Assembly (NCBI GenBank): GCA_958296045.1
Contig: CATQHT010000002.1
Span: forward strand, 434,001-498,000
Source: Rhodothermales bacterium
Lineage (GTDB): Bacteria; Bacteroidota; Rhodothermia; Rhodothermales; Bin80
Direction of reading: 5' to 3'
Length of the DNA: 64,000 bases
The position numbers and the translations under genes are program-made. Positions 4,321-30,776 of this stretch are shown here, piece by piece. The notes under the pieces were generated by a model. That model was not told where the DNA came from. It did not search any database and saw only the letters and a list, made by a program, of their open reading frames with translations. Within the stretch, counting starts at the first letter, position 1. Every line of letters starts with the position of its first letter.

Positions 4321-7003
4321 AGGGCTCCCCTTCGAGTATCAATCGACTTGACAACCACGTTTGTGTCCGTTACCTTACGGGCATGCAGGGGCCACTCGGG
4401 ATCTTGGAAACGCTTCGCAGAGCCGTGCCGGAGGTGTCGGCTACGGTAGCGGCGCATCGTGATAAGAGTCGGCGTGCGCTCGCGGGTATGGTGTGCGAGC
4501 AATTCCGCTTGGTCGATGCACGTGGCGAGAAGCGGCTGGCGGGCTGCATGAAGGCCCTTAGGGTGCTGCATTCTGAAGAGCAGATTGCTTTACCCCCTCC
4601 ACAGGTGAAGCTTCAAATCGCCAAGCCACGGCTATTGGGTAAACCGGTACCAGAGGCGGTGGACGTTCCGGCTGATGTGCGCGAGATCGAGGATTTCGAG
4701 ATCGTCCGAGTAGACAGCGCACAAGATCGCGCCATCTGGAATACGCTCATGGACGAAGAGCATCCGCGGGGGGTGACCACCTTTGCGGGAGCACAAATGC
4801 GCTACCTAATTAAGAGCGCCCACGGTTATCTGGGGGCGGTCGGTTTCTCTGCCGCTGCGCTTTATCTCAAGGCGCGGGACCGGTGGATGGCCTGGAGTCA
4901 TGAGCAGCGCAGCGGCCATCTTAAGCGCGTAGTGAACCTGAGTCGTTTTCTGATTCGTCCAAGTGTTCGGTGCAAGAATCTGGCGAGCTTCGTGCTGGGT
5001 CGCGTGTTTCGGCGATTGTCCTCCGACTTCATGGCCCGGTATAAGTATGTACCTTACGTGGTAGAGACCTTCGTGTGTCCACGTTACGAGGGTACGTGTT
5101 TCAAGGCAGCAGGCTTCCAATACTTAGGTCTCACCCAGGGGCGCGGTCGGCATGCACCGAGCGGCGTGGGAAAGCGTTCACGGAAGAAGGTATTCGCCTA
5201 TGAACTGGATCCTGCGTGGCGCGATCGTCTGGGCGTACCGCATGTGGAATTGCGACCCCGGCTGGAGGTGGGCGCTGGGCTGGCGAGCGACTCTTGGGCG
5301 GAACAGGAATTCGGCGGTGCAGCGTTGGGCCATATTCGGCGCACCGCCCGTCTGGTAAAGAGCGCGGCACTAGTAGCAAAGACGATGGGAAAGCCCGTAA
5401 CCACGGTTCCTAACCGAGACTTAGCTGCTGTAAGGGGATATTGGCGATTCATCGAGAAGGCCGATAGGTTCGGCATCACACCTGCGAAGATACTGGCGCC
5501 GCACCGGCAGCGGACCATTGAGCGGATGCGCACCCAGAAAACGGTGCTGTGCGTGCAGGATGGTACAGACATTAGTTACAGCACACGTCCGCAGTGCGAC
5601 GGATTGGAAGTAATCGGTAGTAACCAGACCAAGGCACAGGCGCGCGGCGTACATCTGCACGCGACCCTGGCGTTGAACGACGAGGGATTGCCCTTGGGAG
5701 TATTACGGTGTTCGTACAGAAAAGAGGAAGGGCAAACCACGACGCATCAATGGATTGACGGGCTTCGCGACATAGATGAGGCTGCACAGACGCTGCCGCG
5801 CAAGACGCGCGTGCTTAGCGTGATGGACCGGGAAGCGGATGCATTCGAGATCTTTGCGGCGCAGCGCACTTTGAAGCGGACCGATGTGCTGATTCGGGCC
5901 AAACACGATCGGAATCTGGGTAAGAACCATGATCGCCTGTTTAAAGCCATGCGCCGTGGACCTGCTGCCGGTGTGCTGGAGCTCTTGGTAGAGCGTCTGA
6001 GTCTTCGGGCGAAGTCTGGTCGGATCACGCACAAGGGCCGTCCGAAGCGCAATGCACGCATGGAGGTGCGTTTTCGCCAAGTGAGGCTGCCAGCAACAGG
6101 CGGGTCTGCCGAAGATCCCGTGAAGGTCTCCGCGGTCCACGTTCGTGAGATAGCACCGCCCAAAGGTGCAGATCGGATTGAGTGGTTTCTGCTAACCACC
6201 GTGGAGGTTACCTCACTACAGGAGGCAGAGCAGATACTGGAATACTACACCCTGCGCTGGCGCGTGGAGGACACCTTTCGGGTACTCAAGACGGGTTGCC
6301 GCGTCGAAAAGCTGCGTATGCAGCAGGCAGAGAACCTGCACCGGGTAATAACGCTGTATATCGTCACGTCCTGGCGGCTCATGCTCATGACGCTGTTGGG
6401 GCGTGTAACTGCCAGCATGGACGCGGAAGTGATTTTCACGGACGCGGAGATGTATATGTTGCGGGTCTATGCCCGCAATTACGACCTTCCCGAACTTAAG
6501 GACCTCGCCTCGGGAATTTTGTTGATGGCGATGATGGGCGGCTACATGAACCGAAAGCACGACCCGCCGCCGGGGCACGAAATCATGTGGCGTGGGTACG
6601 CAAGTCTGCAGATGCGCGCCATAGCCTACGAAGAACTCGGAGCGATTTACGACCTTGTGGAGCGCCAGCCACCATAGCGCATGGCGTAGGCTCGGCAATC
6701 TCAACGGTTTCGCTCACCGCACGCTCCGCAAGGTGCATGCCCGCAAAGCGAGGGGAATATACGCGCCCGTCGCGGTCGGCGCATACACCCTTAACTCACG
6801 CTCGCTACGCGAATAGCCTTGACCCTTCGCATCTACCACTTAGAATAGCGTAACATTCACCTCCAGCGTGAAGCTCCGGCCTCCCGCTACGAGGGCTATG
6901 CTATTCTTGTCGGGTAACCGCGTGGTGAAGGGCCAAACTCTGCCCGCCCTATGCACCTTGAGGGCTCGTTGTCAAGCTGCTTGAGTGATTACCGGGTAGC
7001 CCT
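4321..7003 (+). mobile_element. IS4-family (Tn5-like) insertion sequence with DruA domain
   Basis: The element spans about 2.7 kb with a single large gene. The left end AGGGCTCCCC (4321-4330) pairs with the right end GGGTAGCCCT (6994-7003) at 9 of 10 positions. A second inverted pair, CTTGACAAC (4347-4355) and GTTGTCAAG (6968-6976), lies 26 and 27 bases inside the respective tips, which supports these boundaries. No target duplication is evident, because the left flank is a truncated copy of the same element. Bases 6678-6967 are the non-coding right end, with no second gene. Confidence 0.65.
4383..6677 (+). CDS. IS4-family transposase with N-terminal DruA (DUF4338) domain
   Basis: 764 aa, apparently intact. 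Residues 1-270 resemble DruA/DUF4338, the domain named after the Druantia anti-phage system: LAGMVCEQFRLVDARGEKRL, the LPPP box, then LIKSAHGYLGAVGFSAAALY and a long conserved block to FQYLGLTQGRGRH. From about residue 303 it is a full Tn5-like transposase. The DNA-binding start WAEQEFGGAALGHIRR is followed by first Asp D393 in VQDGTD, second Asp D482 in MDREADAF, and the YREK signature Y622, R625, E629, K636. The C-terminal half alone is about the size of Tn5 transposase, so the DruA part is an addition. It should move its own element by cut and paste. What the DruA domain contributes is unknown; DNA binding or target choice are guesses. Confidence 0.85.
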   Translation: MQGPLGILETLRRAVPEVSATVAAHRDKSRRALAGMVCEQFRLVDARGEKRLAGCMKALRVLHSEEQIALPPPQVKLQIAKPRLLGKPVPEAVDVPADVREIEDFEIVRVDSAQDRAIWNTLMDEEHPRGVTTFAGAQMRYLIKSAHGYLGAVGFSAAALYLKARDRWMAWSHEQRSGHLKRVVNLSRFLIRPSVRCKNLASFVLGRVFRRLSSDFMARYKYVPYVVETFVCPRYEGTCFKAAGFQYLGLTQGRGRHAPSGVGKRSRKKVFAYELDPAWRDRLGVPHVELRPRLEVGAGLASDSWAEQEFGGAALGHIRRTARLVKSAALVAKTMGKPVTTVPNRDLAAVRGYWRFIEKADRFGITPAKILAPHRQRTIERMRTQKTVLCVQDGTDISYSTRPQCDGLEVIGSNQTKAQARGVHLHATLALNDEGLPLGVLRCSYRKEEGQTTTHQWIDGLRDIDEAAQTLPRKTRVLSVMDREADAFEIFAAQRTLKRTDVLIRAKHDRNLGKNHDRLFKAMRRGPAAGVLELLVERLSLRAKSGRITHKGRPKRNARMEVRFRQVRLPATGGSAEDPVKVSAVHVREIAPPKGADRIEWFLLTTVEVTSLQEAEQILEYYTLRWRVEDTFRVLKTGCRVEKLRMQQAENLHRVITLYIVTSWRLMLMTLLGRVTASMDAEVIFTDAEMYMLRVYARNYDLPELKDLASGILLMAMMGGYMNRKHDPPPGHEIMWRGYASLQMRAIAYEELGAIYDLVERQPP

Positions 7004-7058: not shown

Positions 7059-8597
7059 TCATAGAGGTCTGTTTGCCTCGCGCTTCAGATTGGTCACGCC
7101 GCTTAGGACATTCACCTGCGCTGCTTTGGCCCGCTCCTGACTCTGCATCCAACCGATCTTCTTGTTCCTGTTCATCAGTCCTTTCAATGCAAGGGTATCG
7201 CTCTTCGTACGGTTGCACGGGGCACAGAGCAGAATGCGATTGTCTATGAAGTTGGATCCACCCTCGCTGCGTGGCGCCTTATGGTCCAGCTCCATAAACT
7301 CAAACTCCAACTGTCTTCCGCACCCGGCGCAATTCACCAGCTCTTGGCCGGAACCGTAGCTCTGCCACTGGGCCAGCTGTTCCTTCATCTGCCTGTTAGT
7401 AAGCTTCTGCCAAGGCTCCTTGGCTCGCTCCCAGAGGGCCTGCAGCTTGGCGCCAGCACGCTCCCCTTCGTCTGTGCGCACAGGCAACGTACGCGTGTAG
7501 CCTACGTCACCGAAAGAAAACATTCCCGCATTGAAATCAGCTTCGCCATTAATGCTGTATCCCATCCGCCGAAAACGCTCAAGGACGACTTCGTGAGCCT
7601 TTGGCCAGATGTCAATGCCTATCCACTGTCTATTGAGTCCCTCTGCTGCTACACATGTCGTGGCACAACCTGCAAAGGGATCGAGGACAATATCTCCTTC
7701 ATTGGAGCTTACCTTGATTATGCGCTCGTACAGCTTAAGCGGCTTCTGCGTCGGATAACCCATGCGCTCCTTCTTCGGCATGTGCATGGCGTCTGGAATA
7801 TCAAGCCACGTGTCGCCAACAAGCTTTTGCTCAATTACCCCACCACCCTTATGACTTTCCAGAAAATACTTTATTCTGATCTTGCCGTTGCGCGTGACAT
7901 AGATGCGCCCCTCAGCCTTCAGTCGCCGAATCGACTCATCCGTGTAGTCTCCCCTGGGACTTGTCTTGAACCATTTGCCGTTCTCATCCAGCCTGAATCC
8001 CTTGTTTCTGGCTTCTCTACGTGAGTACACGTGCGCCACAAATTGCCTGTTGAATGTGTATTCCCGGCCGCGTGTATAGAACAGAATGACATCCTTGTTG
8101 CGCCCAAAGCGCTTGGCAATGGCCTTTGCACCTCTGCCGCCGTAGCACCATGCGATGTCATTTCTGAACTGCTTTCTGCCAAATATCGCATCCAAACAGG
8201 CCTTCAGATAGTGCGACGCCGTAGGGTCGCAATGCAGGAAAAGGCTGCCGGTCGGTTTCAGCACTCTGCGCATCTCCATTAGCCGCACAGACATAAAGCA
8301 CATGTACGCCCCCATGCCCTCCGAGTGAGCGAACCGACCGGATTCTATCGCTTCGGCCAGCGCTGGGTTGTCGTTGTCGATGGTATCCTCCCACTCCTCG
8401 TGCACGTCCGCCCACGTCCATCTGTCCTGGAACCTTGCGCCCTTGGCCAAGCTCTCGGGGGTGGCGTGAAAATCCTTGCTCTTGTTAAATGGTGGATCCG
8501 TGGCGATCAGGTCTACCGTGCCGCTGTTCATGTTGCGCAGCACATCCAAGTTATCAGCGTGAAAAAGTGTGCGGTTGTTCCAGTTAGGTGTAGCCAT
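7059..8597 (-). CDS. DNA methyltransferase fused to HNH nuclease domain
   Basis: 512 aa. Residues 1-345 form a beta-class amino-methyltransferase: catalytic motif IV DPPF at 34-37, then GYPTQKP near 280 and the SAM-binding motif I DPFAGCATT at 306-314. The DPPF form suggests N6-adenine methylation. Residues 420-475 form an HNH endonuclease module: C423 and C426, ELDHK with H439, an Asn-rich stretch, and C458-x2-C461. Methylation and cleavage could therefore reside in one chain, as in some single-protein restriction-modification enzymes. Alternatively the HNH part could be a DNA-binding zinc module. No separate restriction gene is adjacent. It sits just beyond the IS4-type element, transcribed toward it, in an accessory-looking region. 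Confidence 0.8.
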   Translation of the reverse strand: MATPNWNNRTLFHADNLDVLRNMNSGTVDLIATDPPFNKSKDFHATPESLAKGARFQDRWTWADVHEEWEDTIDNDNPALAEAIESGRFAHSEGMGAYMCFMSVRLMEMRRVLKPTGSLFLHCDPTASHYLKACLDAIFGRKQFRNDIAWCYGGRGAKAIAKRFGRNKDVILFYTRGREYTFNRQFVAHVYSRREARNKGFRLDENGKWFKTSPRGDYTDESIRRLKAEGRIYVTRNGKIRIKYFLESHKGGGVIEQKLVGDTWLDIPDAMHMPKKERMGYPTQKPLKLYERIIKVSSNEGDIVLDPFAGCATTCVAAEGLNRQWIGIDIWPKAHEVVLERFRRMGYSINGEADFNAGMFSFGDVGYTRTLPVRTDEGERAGAKLQALWERAKEPWQKLTNRQMKEQLAQWQSYGSGQELVNCAGCGRQLEFEFMELDHKAPRSEGGSNFIDNRILLCAPCNRTKSDTLALKGLMNRNKKIGWMQSQERAKAAQVNVLSGVTNLKREANRPL

Positions 8598-25473: not shown

Positions 25474-28224
25474 CTACAATAACGTCGCGAGAATGTCATG
25501 AATCTCATCAGGGCTGGTGGTCATTGCGCTGTGCCAGCGTCCGAAGCCACCGTGCTCATTGACCGCCTCTACCCAGGCTTGCAGGTGCTTACGTTTCACG
25601 GTGGCCTCTTCGGTCACTTTACCTTTCGTTTCCAGCACCAGCATGTCGCCTGATTTCAGGCGCACCAGAAAGTCTGGGCGGTACTTGCGTACGACGCCGC
25701 GGAAGATGTAGGCGATTTCAAAGCCCAGGTGGTCATTCTTGACCCATGCTTCTACCAGGTCGGAGTGGTCCAGCGTGTACGCGTCCGACCGTTCCCATGT
25801 GCTGTCGTATACGCAATAGTTGACATGGCTCTTGGTGGTGGCTTCGCACGGCCGCCCGGTGAACCAGCGTCTCATGTCGCCGGTCGTTCGGATCGGACGG
25901 TCCTGATCGAAAACAAGGTCACGCTTTTCGACCTGGCTACATCGGATGCCGCGACAGATGTGCTGCACCACCTTGTTCATGTTCAGCGTGAGGATCAGGC
26001 GGCGCAGCTGGTGGTCCGCATTAGCGGTGGCGGGTTTGATCACGATGGACCCGGAGCGAACGAACTGTTCGATGAGGCCTACCAGCTGCTGAAAAAGCTG
26101 CCCTTGGCCTCCCTTCCATTCCGATTGCATCGTATGGCAAGTGCGGCGTGCCGCATCGAAGATGATGCTCTGCATCCGCAGCTCCTGCGCGAGCCTGTCC
26201 AGCTCGATCCTCTTTTCGTCGGCGTTGTGGGGCGCGCCGTCCAGGATTGGTGCCAGCTCCGCCAGCCGCGTCGTCTGGTGTAGATGGAGCGTCAGGTCTG
26301 GCAGCTGCTGCCTATTGATCGACAGGTGAGGCCCGATTTCCGTGTTGATGCGGAGCACGTTGGGCCAGGTGATCTCATAGGTGGCTTTGTCCTGCACAGG
26401 CTCGATGGCCACCTTGGGAGGGACTGGGGGAGGCGGCTTAATCCGATGCTCATGCGGCAGGAATGAGAATGGAATGCCGAAGATGTTGACGTATTCGGGT
26501 TCGAAGCGCCCGGTGGTCGGGTTCACGTCGTAGGACGTGCGGCGCAGCCCCCGTCCTACCACCTGCTCACACAGTAGCTGACTGGAAAAGGCACGCAGCC
26601 CCATAATGTGGGTCACGGTCTTGGCATCCCATCCTTCCGAAAGCATCCCCACCGAGATGACATTCTGAATCTTTTCGCCCGGCTTGCCTGGTTTGCCCAC
26701 CGTGTTGACCATTTCCCGCAGGTGCTCTCTTTCACGGTCGGCCTTCTTGAGGGTCCCTTGGGCTCCTCCGTCTGTCCTGGTCTCGGCCTTCTGCAGCACC
26801 GTCGAATCGATGTGCATGGTGCGCTCTGCGTCGCAGAGCTCAGCGATTGCGATCAGGTTGCGATCGAAGGCATACTTGATGCGCGCAGCGGTGTGCGTCC
26901 TGTTCGCCACCGTGATGATGACAGGTGGCGTAGCTGCGTTCCGGTCTTTCCACGCCCGCAGGGTTTCGCGCCAGTCGTATCCCAGGAGGTAATAGGCGTT
27001 CGTCACCAGGTCGGGCAGCGGAGCCGTTTCTGGAGCTTTCCGGTTAAGGTCTTCTTTGACCTCCGGGTCGTTGTAGATGTGGTACAGGCGCGACCTGTAC
27101 GTCTTGGCATCTGGCACCACGTCATCGCGCACCACGACGCGTGGCGTCTTGACCAGACCCGATTCGATGGCATCATTGAGCCCGAAGTCGCTCACGATCC
27201 ACTCAAAGAGCGTGTCTTCTGAGCTGCGCTTGCCTATGGGCACAAACGGTGTGGCGGTGAAGTCGTAGCAGAGGCGGACGCCGCGCGCCCGGTGTATCCG
27301 GTCCAGCGCGCCCACCCACTTGGTGGCCTGGTCGATGGTTGTTTTACGGATGCCGCGCTTGGTGCGATCAGTGACGCGCCACGCGTGATGCGCCTCATCG
27401 TTGATGACCAGAATGTTACGCGCCCGCGCGAGGTCACCCAGCACTTCCCGCACGTAGGCCTCGTCGCTCTTGGCGCCTCGCTTATCTACGGACCGCTTCT
27501 TTTTAAGCTTCTCAGGTGATTCCCAGGCGAGCGCATGCCAGTTGCGGATGACGACCTTACCTTGATGCAGCTTGTCCGCCAGCGTCGGGGGCACGACGTG
27601 GAACGCGTCATAGTAGTTGTCTGGATCCGTGGGCACCAGCACCGCCAGGCGGTCCCTGACCGTCAGCCCGGGTGCCACGATCAGCACATTCTTGGAGAAG
27701 CGCCGGTCGTTCGGACGGGCCACCTTGTTGAGGATATGCCAGGCCAGGACCATCGCCATCACGACGGTCTTGCCACTGCCTGTAGCCATCTTGGCGCAGA
27801 GGCGCCGAAAGTCGCCACCATCGCTGGGGATGTCGAGGCCCACCTTATCCACCTGGGGCCCTTCTGTGAGCCACATCAGCGTTTCTGCGGCTTCGATCTG
27901 GCAATAGTAGAAGCGGCGAGAGTCAAATTCCTCCGGGTCCATCCAGTATGCCAGGAGCCTGCGTGTGACGGCGGTGGCTCCGGGGTACCCGGCTTCGCGC
28001 CACTCTTTGACGCGTTGGCGAATCTGGTCCACGCGCGGAATTGGGACCGGGGTCCCGGGCGCGTCGTGCTCTTTGGAGTCTGCTGACGCAACGACGAAGC
28101 TTGCTGGGCGCCGTCCCGCCTTCAGGATGAACTGCCGCGTGTGCGGGTCAAAGCTCCAGTGCTGGCTGGGCTCCTCGTATGGCGAGCTGATGATGAGCTG
28201 CTTGATCGTGGGGCTGCCCATCAC
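25474..28224 (-). CDS. res: Type III-like restriction enzyme subunit (Res helicase-nuclease)
   Basis: 916 aa. It is an SF2 helicase motor with Walker A MATGSGKT (147-153), DEAH box NDEAHHAW (D276-H279) and motif VI VVGRGLRRTS. It ends in a PD-(D/E)XK nuclease-like site (PDFLV about residue 850, then LVLETKGK to 869). This is the R subunit of a type III-like restriction system: it translocates ATP-dependently and cuts unmodified DNA together with Mod. The start is GTG 28224 or ATG 28221; both overlap the mod stop, so the genes are coupled. No frameshift or lost motif is visible. AT-rich palindromes (for example TGCATATATGCA at 25332-25343) lie between it and the dead IS. Confidence 0.88.
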   Translation of the reverse strand: MMGSPTIKQLIISSPYEEPSQHWSFDPHTRQFILKAGRRPASFVVASADSKEHDAPGTPVPIPRVDQIRQRVKEWREAGYPGATAVTRRLLAYWMDPEEFDSRRFYYCQIEAAETLMWLTEGPQVDKVGLDIPSDGGDFRRLCAKMATGSGKTVVMAMVLAWHILNKVARPNDRRFSKNVLIVAPGLTVRDRLAVLVPTDPDNYYDAFHVVPPTLADKLHQGKVVIRNWHALAWESPEKLKKKRSVDKRGAKSDEAYVREVLGDLARARNILVINDEAHHAWRVTDRTKRGIRKTTIDQATKWVGALDRIHRARGVRLCYDFTATPFVPIGKRSSEDTLFEWIVSDFGLNDAIESGLVKTPRVVVRDDVVPDAKTYRSRLYHIYNDPEVKEDLNRKAPETAPLPDLVTNAYYLLGYDWRETLRAWKDRNAATPPVIITVANRTHTAARIKYAFDRNLIAIAELCDAERTMHIDSTVLQKAETRTDGGAQGTLKKADREREHLREMVNTVGKPGKPGEKIQNVISVGMLSEGWDAKTVTHIMGLRAFSSQLLCEQVVGRGLRRTSYDVNPTTGRFEPEYVNIFGIPFSFLPHEHRIKPPPPVPPKVAIEPVQDKATYEITWPNVLRINTEIGPHLSINRQQLPDLTLHLHQTTRLAELAPILDGAPHNADEKRIELDRLAQELRMQSIIFDAARRTCHTMQSEWKGGQGQLFQQLVGLIEQFVRSGSIVIKPATANADHQLRRLILTLNMNKVVQHICRGIRCSQVEKRDLVFDQDRPIRTTGDMRRWFTGRPCEATTKSHVNYCVYDSTWERSDAYTLDHSDLVEAWVKNDHLGFEIAYIFRGVVRKYRPDFLVRLKSGDMLVLETKGKVTEEATVKRKHLQAWVEAVNEHGGFGRWHSAMTTSPDEIHDILATLL

Positions 28225-30776
28225 TCCAGGGGAAGGACCTTGAGGCTCTCGATGCCACGATCGTCGATAATCTTGACGGCGGCTCGGCGATGGTCTCCGG
28301 CTTCAAACGGCAGGGATTCGGTGCCGCGGTATTTCTCAATCAGGTCAGGATCAATGACCGCTTTGAGGTTCTTGGCCAGCTTCTGCCATCCTTCCTTGGC
28401 GCCCGCCATAGGGAAGAAGACTTGGCGTGCAAAAAGGCTGCGCCCATCGTAGTTGGGATCCAGCATCCAGCACGCGATGCGATCAGCGCCGCCGGACTCT
28501 AGGTTACCGGTTCGCACGTCAAAGTAGTCGAACCCCTGCACGGTGATCCGGTACCGACCGGCGTTTGGACCTGTTTGCACCTGCTCACAAAGAACATCGG
28601 GCTGCCCTATGAGCCAGAAGCTCTCATTGCTGGCGCGCTTCTTTTTCAGGTCTGCTGTTAGCAGATCCGCATTCATTTGAGCCTTGATAAGGGTTGTACC
28701 CGGCCAGCGCATCTCATCGATGGTCTTGGCGGCCTCGGGGTCAAACTGGAATGCCGCAAAGACAACAATCTTCGGCTTAAGAACGAGCCGATACGCCTCC
28801 TCCAATGCACGTTCTACCTGACGCGGCTCAAGTGGCGCATGCGTAGGTCCAAACGACACCACCGTGCGCCGAGGATGCGCATCGATCGAAAAATCGGGGG
28901 GCGAATCCGAATGCACTTCTCCATCTGCGTGGAGCCAATCGGCTGCTGGCAGCGTCTCCAGACGTGAAAACAAGAGCTTTCGTCCGCTCCTGCCGCGGAT
29001 GCCCGTCTTTTGGAGTTCTGCACACCAGTCGGCGTGGCGGGCCGATGCGCCCACCCGCGCTTCCGATGCATCGGCCGGAGCAGGTGTGTCTGCTGGGACC
29101 TTATCGATGGGCATCACTGTCGGCGCTGGCACAGCTTCTACGGTGAAGGGGCCGGAGACGCGCGTCGTGGATCTATCCTCCAGCGGCTGATCGTATAGCA
29201 CGATAGGCTCTGCCGGCTGATCATACGCCAGAATGCCCGCCGACACTCTGGGCACGCTCTTGTACTCAAATCCGGCACCTACTCCTTCTTCTGGACGCGC
29301 CAGCCTGTAGTAACTAAATTGAGCGGTCATCAGCCGCTGGCGTGCGATAGCCAGCGCTACACGCGACGTATCGCACGAAATCCAGCGTCGGCCCCACTGC
29401 TCAGCCACGAATGCGGTTGTACCGCTGCCGCACGTAGGATCAAACACCAGGTCACCTGGATCGCTGGACATCAGGATCGCGCGCTGCACGGCTTTCTTGG
29501 CCGTCTGTACTACATAGACTTTCCCCTGCACCGGCATCTGCGCGGCCCAAAGATTGTTGATGCGCCTGCCAGCCACCTCGTCTTCATACAGCCTCCACAT
29601 CAATGAAGTCTGTCCCGGCAGAGCTTCCAAGCGCCCCAGCCGGGCAAGATGATCCATGCCTTCTCTGGAGACCGCCCAATGTCGATTCTTACCGCAGTGG
29701 TACTGCTGACCTTGAAATTCGTACGGATCCGAGCGATCGGTCTTAGACCAGCCCTGCGAGGTAAGATTCATTCGTCGATAAACCCGAGCACCCCTGGGCA
29801 GGTATCGATCGGGATCGAACCGCTCTTCGCGCGTCAACTTGCGGCGTGTGCTGTCGGGCAGCTCAACCATCACATAGGAACTGAAGTAGCCAACCACCTC
29901 CGCTCGGGTCAGCCGCTCATAAAGCTGGCGATACTTCACCTGCGACCGCTGCCTGGCATACCACAAGAGATAGTGTGCGACCTCTGGAAGCGTGGCCGCC
30001 GAAGTACCTGAAGATGTCGCGAAGGCGATGGACGCTACACGGTTCTCTGCCCCAAAGACTTCGTCCATAAGCATCGCGGCGCGATGCACATTGGTCTTGC
30101 CGATCTGAAGGAAACAGCTGCCGGTTGGGGTGAGCAGCTCGCGGGCTAAGAACAACCGATCGCGCAGATAGGTGAGGTATGAGTGGATGCCCAGCTCCCA
30201 CGTGTCACGGAAGGCGCGCAGCTGCTCCGGCTCCTGAGTCAGATCCTCGTCGCGACCGTCGTCCGCGCTCCGCTTGCTTACAAACGGCTGAAAGTTGGAG
30301 CCATACGTGATGCCGTACGGCGGATCCATATACACCGTCTGAACCTTCTGCGCCATGCCCTCCTTCTCCAGCAAACTGTTCATCACCAGAAGGCTGTCTC
30401 CGGCGATAAGCCGGTTAGACCAGCTGTGACGATGCCTGTAAAATTCGATCGCCTTGTGTATGGGAGGGTTCTCTGTCGGCAGGTCAAACAGCGACGGCTG
30501 CGCTGCATCCGCCCGCCGCCGACGCACAGCGTCCATGATGGTCTTCGGATCCACGCGCTCATGCACGTGCAGCGATACTGTCGGTACCTCGAAAGAGGCA
30601 TGCTCCGCCTTGCCTCCCCAGCTCAGTTGCGGATCGATGTGGGGATCGTGCGCGAGTGTGCGCACTGCCGCGTCGGGATCCGTGCCCGCCGTGACTAGGC
30701 CGACAGGCGGGTTGTTGGGCCGGTCCTTGTCGGCATGTGCATACGAGGAAACGTCCTTAGACTTTTTCATGGTCAC
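28221..30776 (-). CDS. mod: Type III-like modification methyltransferase (Mod)
   Basis: 851 aa. It is a beta-class adenine methyltransferase: catalytic DPPYG at 151-155, a long target-recognition region with EFQGQQYHCGKNRHWAVS, then the SAM motif DPTCGSGTT near residue 446. An approximately 350-residue C-terminal extension follows, including FDPEAAKTIDEMRWPGTTLIKAQMN split over two stretches; such tails occur in Mods paired with DEAD/DEAH Res proteins. It would mark the host DNA and give the complex its specificity. GTG 30776 has a weak Shine-Dalgarno-like AGAGACAG six bases upstream; ATG 30770 is the alternative. It is transcribed first, ahead of res. Confidence 0.88.
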   Translation of the reverse strand: MTMKKSKDVSSYAHADKDRPNNPPVGLVTAGTDPDAAVRTLAHDPHIDPQLSWGGKAEHASFEVPTVSLHVHERVDPKTIMDAVRRRRADAAQPSLFDLPTENPPIHKAIEFYRHRHSWSNRLIAGDSLLVMNSLLEKEGMAQKVQTVYMDPPYGITYGSNFQPFVSKRSADDGRDEDLTQEPEQLRAFRDTWELGIHSYLTYLRDRLFLARELLTPTGSCFLQIGKTNVHRAAMLMDEVFGAENRVASIAFATSSGTSAATLPEVAHYLLWYARQRSQVKYRQLYERLTRAEVVGYFSSYVMVELPDSTRRKLTREERFDPDRYLPRGARVYRRMNLTSQGWSKTDRSDPYEFQGQQYHCGKNRHWAVSREGMDHLARLGRLEALPGQTSLMWRLYEDEVAGRRINNLWAAQMPVQGKVYVVQTAKKAVQRAILMSSDPGDLVFDPTCGSGTTAFVAEQWGRRWISCDTSRVALAIARQRLMTAQFSYYRLARPEEGVGAGFEYKSVPRVSAGILAYDQPAEPIVLYDQPLEDRSTTRVSGPFTVEAVPAPTVMPIDKVPADTPAPADASEARVGASARHADWCAELQKTGIRGRSGRKLLFSRLETLPAADWLHADGEVHSDSPPDFSIDAHPRRTVVSFGPTHAPLEPRQVERALEEAYRLVLKPKIVVFAAFQFDPEAAKTIDEMRWPGTTLIKAQMNADLLTADLKKKRASNESFWLIGQPDVLCEQVQTGPNAGRYRITVQGFDYFDVRTGNLESGGADRIACWMLDPNYDGRSLFARQVFFPMAGAKEGWQKLAKNLKAVIDPDLIEKYRGTESLPFEAGDHRRAAVKIIDDRGIESLKVLPLE

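Follow-up and report, generated by a model that had tools for sequence, protein, structure and literature searches.

A fused methyltransferase-HNH gene of a Rhodothermales bacterium: a candidate single-chain restriction-modification enzyme with variable recognition domains and transposon-borne relatives

The gene and its two modules

The window, i.e. the whole stretch of 64 000 nucleotides of Rhodothermales DNA analysed here, carries on its minus strand a single open reading frame, 512 amino acids long when counted from ATG, in which a DNA methyltransferase (MTase) is followed by an HNH nuclease module (Table 1). The front part matches the Pfam profile PF01555 (N6_N4_Mtase) over residues 28-337 with an E-value of 1.7e-44 (152.8 bits against a cut-off of 26.7), and the end of the chain matches PF01844 (HNH) over residues 423-467 with an E-value of 2.7e-10 (40.7 bits against a cut-off of 21.4). 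An earlier, sequence-only reading had reported motif IV DPPF and motif I DPFAGCATT in the front part and, behind them, a four-cysteine HNH with ELDHK; the two motifs are indeed there, at residues 34-38 and 306-314, and the HNH core lies at residues 421-470, with the pattern CAGC..ELDHK..IDN..CAPCN..K. The same reading had the MTase extend to about residue 345 with the HNH coming next: the MTase module does end near residue 345, but a variable linker of about 75 residues separates it from the HNH. Among NCBIfam models the front part matches CcrM and other MTases and the HNH part matches IscB and Cas9, all under their cut-offs, while the best 25 of 80 matching PADLOC profiles comprise Type II, Type III and orphan MTases. 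The Pfam matches of the window protein include no SRA or EVE reader domain, nor any guide-RNA nuclease or methyl-reading domain.

Table 1. Coordinates of the MTase-HNH gene and its features within the window
Feature	Position	Strand	Evidence
MTase-HNH gene, single chain	7059..8597	-	PF01555 and PF01844 in one frame; AlphaFold2 mean pLDDT 88.7
MTase motif IV DPPFN, catalytic (residues 34-38)	8484..8498	-	DPPF in 82/82 non-redundant full-length relatives
Target-recognition domain, TRD (residues 149-272), between motif IV and motifs X/I	7782..8153	-	Entropy; paralogue identity 6-33%
MTase motif I DPFAGCATT, AdoMet binding (residues 306-314)	7656..7682	-	Motif match and family alignment
Variable linker (residues 346-420)	7338..7562	-	Mean entropy 2.48 bits; low-confidence patches in AlphaFold2 model
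HNH nuclease core (residues 421-470) with Cys423/426/458/461	7188..7337	-	PF01844 E 2.7e-10; Cas9-HNH-like fold, best Z 8.2
HNH Asp438-His439	7281..7286	-	79/82 and 82/82 relatives; in register with 8d2k
HNH Asn453	7239..7241	-	82/82 relatives
HNH Asn462	7212..7214	-	80/82 relatives

The front half has the features of a beta-class amino MTase, namely a DPPF motif IV followed by the TRD and then by motifs X and I, a PF01555 match above cut-off and the fold of CcrM and M.MboIIA. In an AlphaFold2 model of the protein, built on an alignment of 68 sequences (mean pLDDT 88.7), this half compares best with the solved structures of CcrM (6pbd, Z 24.9), M.BceJIV (24.8), M.MboIIA (24.6) and M.RsrI (24.5). 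Since N4-cytosine MTases rank somewhat below (8s9m, 23.7; PvuII, 21.7), adenine is the likelier target base and, judging from these nearest solved relatives, most likely the one that is modified. The last 125 residues, modelled alone, reach a pLDDT of 94.5 and have as nearest folds the HNH domains of Cas9 (best Z 8.2 across 99 residues at 4.1 Å), the Gme nicking HNH 4h9d and McrA, no E-value in the Foldseek list being better than 2.9e-3. Taken alone, this fold match is modest, because a Z of 8.2 is near what the aligner yields without true kinship. The core also aligns by sequence with Acidothermus Cas9 (8d2k, E 3.1e-6), with Asp-His, Asn and CN..K in register, and by profile with McrA (6ghc), so that the earlier concern that its His or Asn might be out of line with active nucleases does not materialize; its sequence kin are Cas9, IscB and McrA. 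By comparison with Cas9 we take Asp438 to be a metal ligand and His439 the general base. The HNH thus combines a profile match above cut-off, a catalytic His and metal-site Asp and Asn that are kept, and a confident model with a nuclease fold.

An alignment of 87 full-length proteins was assembled from nine copies of the window genome, nine other relatives, three viral contigs and 66 of the 80 loci kept, out of 160 relatives, in a scan of named genomes (the ‘named loci’, all from records titled as MAGs); the remaining 14 of the 80 were excluded for want of a single intact frame across both modules. As one frame covers both modules in those 66 named loci and in nine loci of the window genome, the fusion is not due to chance. 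Mean entropy in the alignment reaches 2.47 bits in the TRD region (residues 141-262), whereas the MTase core has 1.09-1.25. Among the 82 non-redundant proteins, i.e. those differing by more than 5%, DPPF, His439 and Asn453 are each present in 82, Asn462 in 80, Asp438 in 79 and the four cysteines in 81-82. Counts of non-synonymous and synonymous changes in 15 close pairs, which were hand-picked and are not independent as they share sequences, were 41:196 in the HNH, 187:634 and 131:339 in the N- and C-terminal parts of the MTase, and 237:283 in the linker, the ratio being lowest in the HNH. Residue conservation and these counts together indicate that the HNH is maintained as a domain with its catalytic residues. 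The idea that it is a purely structural or DNA-binding zinc module, also entertained in the earlier reading, is accordingly disfavoured, given that conservation extends beyond the four cysteines to Asp438, His439, Asn453 and Asn462. In one intact paralogue of the window genome (L005), Asp438 is replaced by Glu and Lys465 by Thr. Two Alphaproteobacteria (L077 and L084) keep the MTase and have lost Asp438 and Asn462 of the HNH; they are possible natural nuclease-dead forms, which would be useful as controls.

Nine intact copies and their recognition domains

The window genome (4.78 Mb, 96.7% complete) contains nine intact and three broken copies of the gene. One broken copy (C3:1899999) has an intact MTase frame and an HNH remnant with stops, another (C3:2332585/2336722) is in two halves with 3.3 kb between them, and the last (C2:657785-658777) is decayed; broken copies go both ways, and we do not claim that the HNH decays before the MTase. 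The intact copies form one clade with an SH-aLRT of 98 in a tree of 84 core sequences, obtained by a quick method and no bootstrap. Across the 36 pairs that they make, the MTase core is 67-87% identical and the TRD 6-33%, with TRD lengths from 65 to 162 amino acids. For L227 and L231, DNA identity is 87-90% on the flanks of the TRD region, and the region itself gives no DNA match. Multiple copies occur elsewhere too: ten genomes of the named loci have from at least one to at least eight matches spanning both modules, the figure of at least eight coming from a 2.5-Mb Dehalococcoidia chromosome.

L034-L036 and L126 were dropped as duplicates from a wider comparison. Of 125 pairs whose cores are 80% or more identical, 111 have TRDs less than 30% identical, six fall between 30 and 60% and eight lie above 60%; conversely, TRDs more than 60% identical are shared in 13 of 3278 pairs of lower core identity. 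The window protein and L037, for example, have TRDs 67% identical, cores 56% and HNHs 38%. Because similar cores carry different TRDs and differing cores share TRDs, recognition domains seem to move between backbones, and TRD replacement is our best reading, from these comparisons, of how the family may have diversified. Such movement of TRDs has been documented in Type III and Type I systems (PMC3983042). Grouping the TRDs by single linkage was uninformative, as it gave one cluster of 85. Two pairs, each made up of copies from one genome, differ in this respect: L099 and L100 have cores 90% and TRDs 37% identical, and L125 and L126 are identical in the parts compared.

Neighbours, IS1595 elements and distribution

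In the flanks of 92 loci no partner nuclease recurs beside the MTase-HNH gene, and no neighbour family is found in more than five loci except the IS1595 transposase (17) and a DruA-transposase of the window genome (7). A cytosine-MTase-like gene, recognized by eye, is present in four of the 92. A Type III Res helicase-nuclease is absent beside the window gene, and no Res-like neighbour family recurs in the 92 loci. Elsewhere in the window (25474-30776, minus strand), two adjacent frames resemble, by eye, a complete Type III restriction-modification (RM) pair, with a Mod-like protein of 851 amino acids (PF01555) and a Res-like one of 916. The window gene itself is bordered by a transposase gene and by frames that include, by eye, lipB. 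At 4383-6677 on the plus strand a Tn5-like DDE transposase is preceded, in the same chain, by a DruA domain (PF14236). Matches to this protein number 109 across the genome; they include full-length copies that are near-identical and a second group with an identity of about 51%. A relative of DruA, the Druantia protein, may thus be linked to transposons. We considered this DruA-transposase as a possible vehicle, since seven of the 12 loci have it, whole or as a fragment, no more than 4 kb away, but with 109 matches in the genome and varying distance and orientation we rejected it.

Of the 80 named loci, 17 have IS1595-family transposase genes, grouped by similarity and confirmed by Pfam (PF12762) in two cases. 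Terminal inverted repeats with exact 8-bp target duplications outside them enclose the MTase-HNH gene in 13 of the 80 loci, 8 bp being the size expected of an IS1595 transposase. The repeat ends of these 13 match at 21-24 of 24 nucleotides; 12 of the elements include the transposase and one (L079) is without it. The criterion was a repeat match of at least 21/24 together with an 8/8 duplication, of which the other 67 named loci fall short, and among 268 mismatched left/right controls none did better than 15/24 with 7/8. A duplication alone was discarded as evidence, because 8/8 also turns up by chance beside poor repeats (e.g. L099, L106, L233). The duplications differ in sequence between elements, with no shared site. 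The hosts are Pseudomonadota in seven cases, and Nitrospinota, Chloroflexota, Nitrososphaerota, Rhodothermota, Nitrospirota and Acidobacteriota in one each. The archaeal element, L101, is 2810 bp long with two frames listed inside; an SBDS gene lies about 1.1 kb beyond one of its ends, with two RNase PH-type genes close by, a gene set known from archaea. Carriage of the family as transposon cargo, at least sometimes, is the best reading of these data. At L136 (3260-8122), an IS1595 element with its own MTase-HNH gene interrupts the TRD region of a second MTase-HNH gene, itself flanked by repeats, and both the nested and the outer element have exact 8-bp duplications. L090 has a different, perfect 33-nucleotide repeat with an 8-bp duplication, read by eye, and in L089, L091 and L098 a recurring unknown gene of up to about 170 amino acids is found beside the MTase-HNH/IS1595 pair.

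Around the window copy and its 11 sister loci we found no IS1595 transposase, terminal inverted repeat or 8-bp duplication, and none of the nine IS1595 matches of the genome lies within 10 kb of any copy. A search of the copies in this genome for element ends in common also found none, homology mostly stopping near the start and stop codons, with about 160-260 bp of upstream homology in a few pairs (L223/L226, L224/L227, L224/L228 and L227/L228). Inverted-repeat scores of these loci were not above controls in the test that included target duplications. L230 has an inverted-repeat score of 26.5 against a control maximum of 15, from an imperfect 69-nucleotide repeat with no duplication and no IS1595 ends.

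By title, the 80 named loci belong to Pseudomonadota (27), Chloroflexota (25), Poribacteria (16), Bacteroidota (3), Rhodothermota (3) and Nitrososphaerota (2), with one each in four further phyla. The isolate labels RHO, CAR, COS, STY, CLI and APA fit sponge species named in passages of PMC8163846, and from these labels we infer that many of the relatives are bins of sponge symbionts. In a set of 59 relatives, 55 have some match, mostly to the MTase part, and long matches of more than 580 bits come from G012, G013 and G014 of its own family. The C-terminal module is matched in 160 of 198 genomes of the phylum, only the window genome exceeding 56 bits, and the next best among the matches listed reaches 55.2 bits in a frame of 186 amino acids. 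Of the phage records, 577 match, none over 80% of the protein, and one of 4195 plasmid records covers more than 80% of it, at 23% identity. The 80 viral loci kept, out of 522 relatives, contain 82 matching frames, only three of them with an HNH, which led us to reject a viral origin of the fusion; those three (L143, L144 and L146) are viral contigs encoding the fusion, and the other matching frames in the 80 fetched loci are without it. Homologues without the HNH being common, an MTase-only role in the wider family would be viable. As the phyla are grouped on the tree (17 changes of label, where shuffling gave a mean of 35.8 and nine is the least possible), transfer between phyla is probably at most occasional rather than free, and recent transfer found no backing in DNA identity, since no cross-phylum match reaches 85% over 200 nucleotides.

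Proposed restriction and modification in one chain, and the alternatives

Comparison of sequences across the family makes it probable, in our judgement, that the window protein is a single-gene, single-chain RM enzyme with shared specificity. Its N-terminal beta-class MTase would methylate a base at a site chosen by the variable TRD, and the C-terminal HNH, on a flexible linker, would cut DNA bearing the same site unmethylated. One TRD would serve both activities, so that its replacement would change modification and restriction together, and one backbone amplified to nine intact copies with nine TRDs could put up a layered defence to foreign DNA. The protein would be expected to methylate and to cut, with one specificity for both activities, and to benefit its host through defence. 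The compact RM enzyme suggested in the sequence-only reading stands as the best reading, with intact HNH residues and no recurrent partner nuclease on its side, and with cleavage as a predicted activity. Counter-points are that 14 of the 80 named loci are without an intact full-length frame, that homologues without the HNH are common, that HNH residues are altered in L005, L077 and L084, that the fold match of the HNH is modest and that four of the 92 loci have the cytosine-MTase-like gene in their flanks; nine active self-cutting specificities would also be a heavy load, and some copies may be silent.

That the protein is instead an orphan or regulatory MTase, whose HNH fold is a zinc DNA-binding module no longer able to cut, would agree with the abundance of MTase-only homologues in phages and plasmids and with the broken HNH sites of L077 and L084, both of which keep the MTase. 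We consider it unlikely, since Asp438, His439, Asn453 and Asn462 are retained, beyond the zinc cysteines, in 79-82 of 82 relatives, the ratio of non-synonymous to synonymous changes is lowest in the HNH, and the folds and sequences nearest to it are those of nucleases. The similarity of the HNH to that of McrA could also be taken to mean that the enzyme is modification-dependent and Type IV-like, the HNH cutting a methylated site and the MTase part acting as a reader or in some other role. This seems very improbable: the catalytic DPPF is invariant in 82 of 82, so the MTase part is not just a reader, and SRA and EVE domains are absent from the Pfam matches.

A further alternative is a nickase or homing-like helper of mobile DNA, whose HNH would break unmethylated sites in favour of integration or gene conversion while the MTase protects the donor, defence being a by-product. 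The 13 named loci between inverted repeats, the element inside the TRD region of another copy at L136 and the resemblance of the HNH to the single-strand-cutting HNH of Cas9 and to a nicking HNH are all in line with such a role, and a phage methylase gene that contains a homing insertion, in which an HNH is hidden, has been reported (PMC11855218). Nevertheless, the copies in the window genome are without such ends, and the duplications have the 8 bp typical of the IS1595 transposase and vary from element to element, with no site in common, so that we regard this account, too, as having little likelihood. Finally, the wide taxonomic spread might be due to errors in binning rather than to transfer, as the 80 records are MAGs, cross-phylum DNA matches stay below the threshold given above and phylum labels cluster on the tree. 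We find this scarcely credible in view of relatives in records titled chromosomes of Alphaproteobacteria, Gammaproteobacteria, Poribacteria and Dehalococcoidia, and of the genes known from archaea near L101.

The likeness of the proposed single-chain enzyme to known systems is partial in each case. The nuclease of Type IIG enzymes is usually of the PD-(D/E)XK kind. As presented in passages of PMC4081073, these enzymes (BcgI, MmeI, TstI) join restriction and modification in one chain sharing one recognition module, with a gamma-class MTase and an S module that is C-terminal or separate. The window protein likewise has MTase and nuclease domains in one chain with one recognition module, where a change of specificity would hit both activities, but its C-terminal nuclease is an HNH, its motif IV (residues 34-38) precedes motif I (306-314) and its fold matches are beta-class, i.e. 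the order is not that of the gamma class, and its variable domain is internal (149-272). We infer that it works like a Type IIG enzyme, yet we do not file it there, because two defining features fail, namely the gamma-class MTase and the C-terminal or separate S module. CcrM, M.MboII, M.RsrI and M.BceJIV share its MTase fold (Z 24-25) and the order IV-TRD-X-I, but the matched structures are without an HNH domain. In MboII-type systems an HNH endonuclease is paired with separate beta-class MTases, so that the same two kinds of catalytic module are found, in separate genes there and in one chain here. With the HNHs of Cas9, IscB and McrA the protein has in common the ELDH...N...C..CN..K core, the four-cysteine pattern and a similar fold, whereas its targeting would be by the TRD of the MTase. 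IS1595-family transposons with passenger genes are a known category, with which the elements found here have in common the PF12762 transposase, terminal inverted repeats and 8-bp target duplication; in our case the passenger is a whole MTase-HNH gene, and the window copy lies outside such an element. Conserved catalytic parts with exchanged recognition domains are likewise described, in passages of PMC3983042, for the Type I S and Type III Mod genes of Helicobacter pylori, but exchange in the present family, seen among nine paralogues of one genome, would re-aim a fused nuclease too. No description of the MTase-HNH fusion, or of IS1595 elements carrying it, was found in the titles and beginnings of abstracts covered by searches of the literature, and the fusion is not described in the passages matched by term in PMC9531527, PMC5099237, PMC8163846, PMC6563490, PMC6697440 and PMC12707154.

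If this reading is true, a single gene of about 1.3-1.7 kb would make up a minimal RM system, which could be re-targeted through the one exchangeable domain that sets its specificity. We may speculate further, and only tentatively, since the whole chain of suppositions is rather doubtful, that there exists a ‘restriction transposon’ crossing phyla and domains, made of an IS1595 transposase and a single-gene RM enzyme, or of one gene in a non-autonomous form, in which the enzyme would both defend the host and addict it to the element. Its main hosts would be symbionts of animals (sponges), its TRDs would come from a common pool, some members would switch by homopolymers, and the window genome would represent a settled end state in which one backbone has given rise to nine specificities. 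According to passages of PMC8163846, Type I and II RM genes are almost exclusive to sponge-associated genomes and RM genes are among the laterally transferred genes of sponge symbionts; the one-gene RM enzyme would supply a concrete vehicle for what is reported there. It would also open the selfish-RM idea to testing on the simplest possible case, in which a transposon carries toxin and antidote as a single protein. The earlier reading had seen neither the multi-copy family nor the exchange of TRDs nor the transposons.

As regards switching, the window copy has no long homopolymer tract, and the named loci contain 34 runs of at least eight C or G. Enrichment inside the gene was looked for and discarded (genes had four runs in 110 kb, flanks 30 in 795 kb). 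Eight of the 34 fall between 160 bp before and 30 bp after the gene start, a region that makes up 1.7% of the bases (p 9e-8) and was chosen after looking, so that this enrichment is a lead only. Long C or G runs suggest phase variation, and homopolymer errors of short reads could also account for them; when read from upstream start codons, some of the run-bearing frames are open and some are not. Runs around the start were seen in L064, L072, L083, L094, L095, L108 and L136, and L141 has seven C only. In L116 (6931) and L122 (6926), runs of nine and 13 C, respectively, lie at the junction of MTase and HNH, and the frame is broken there.
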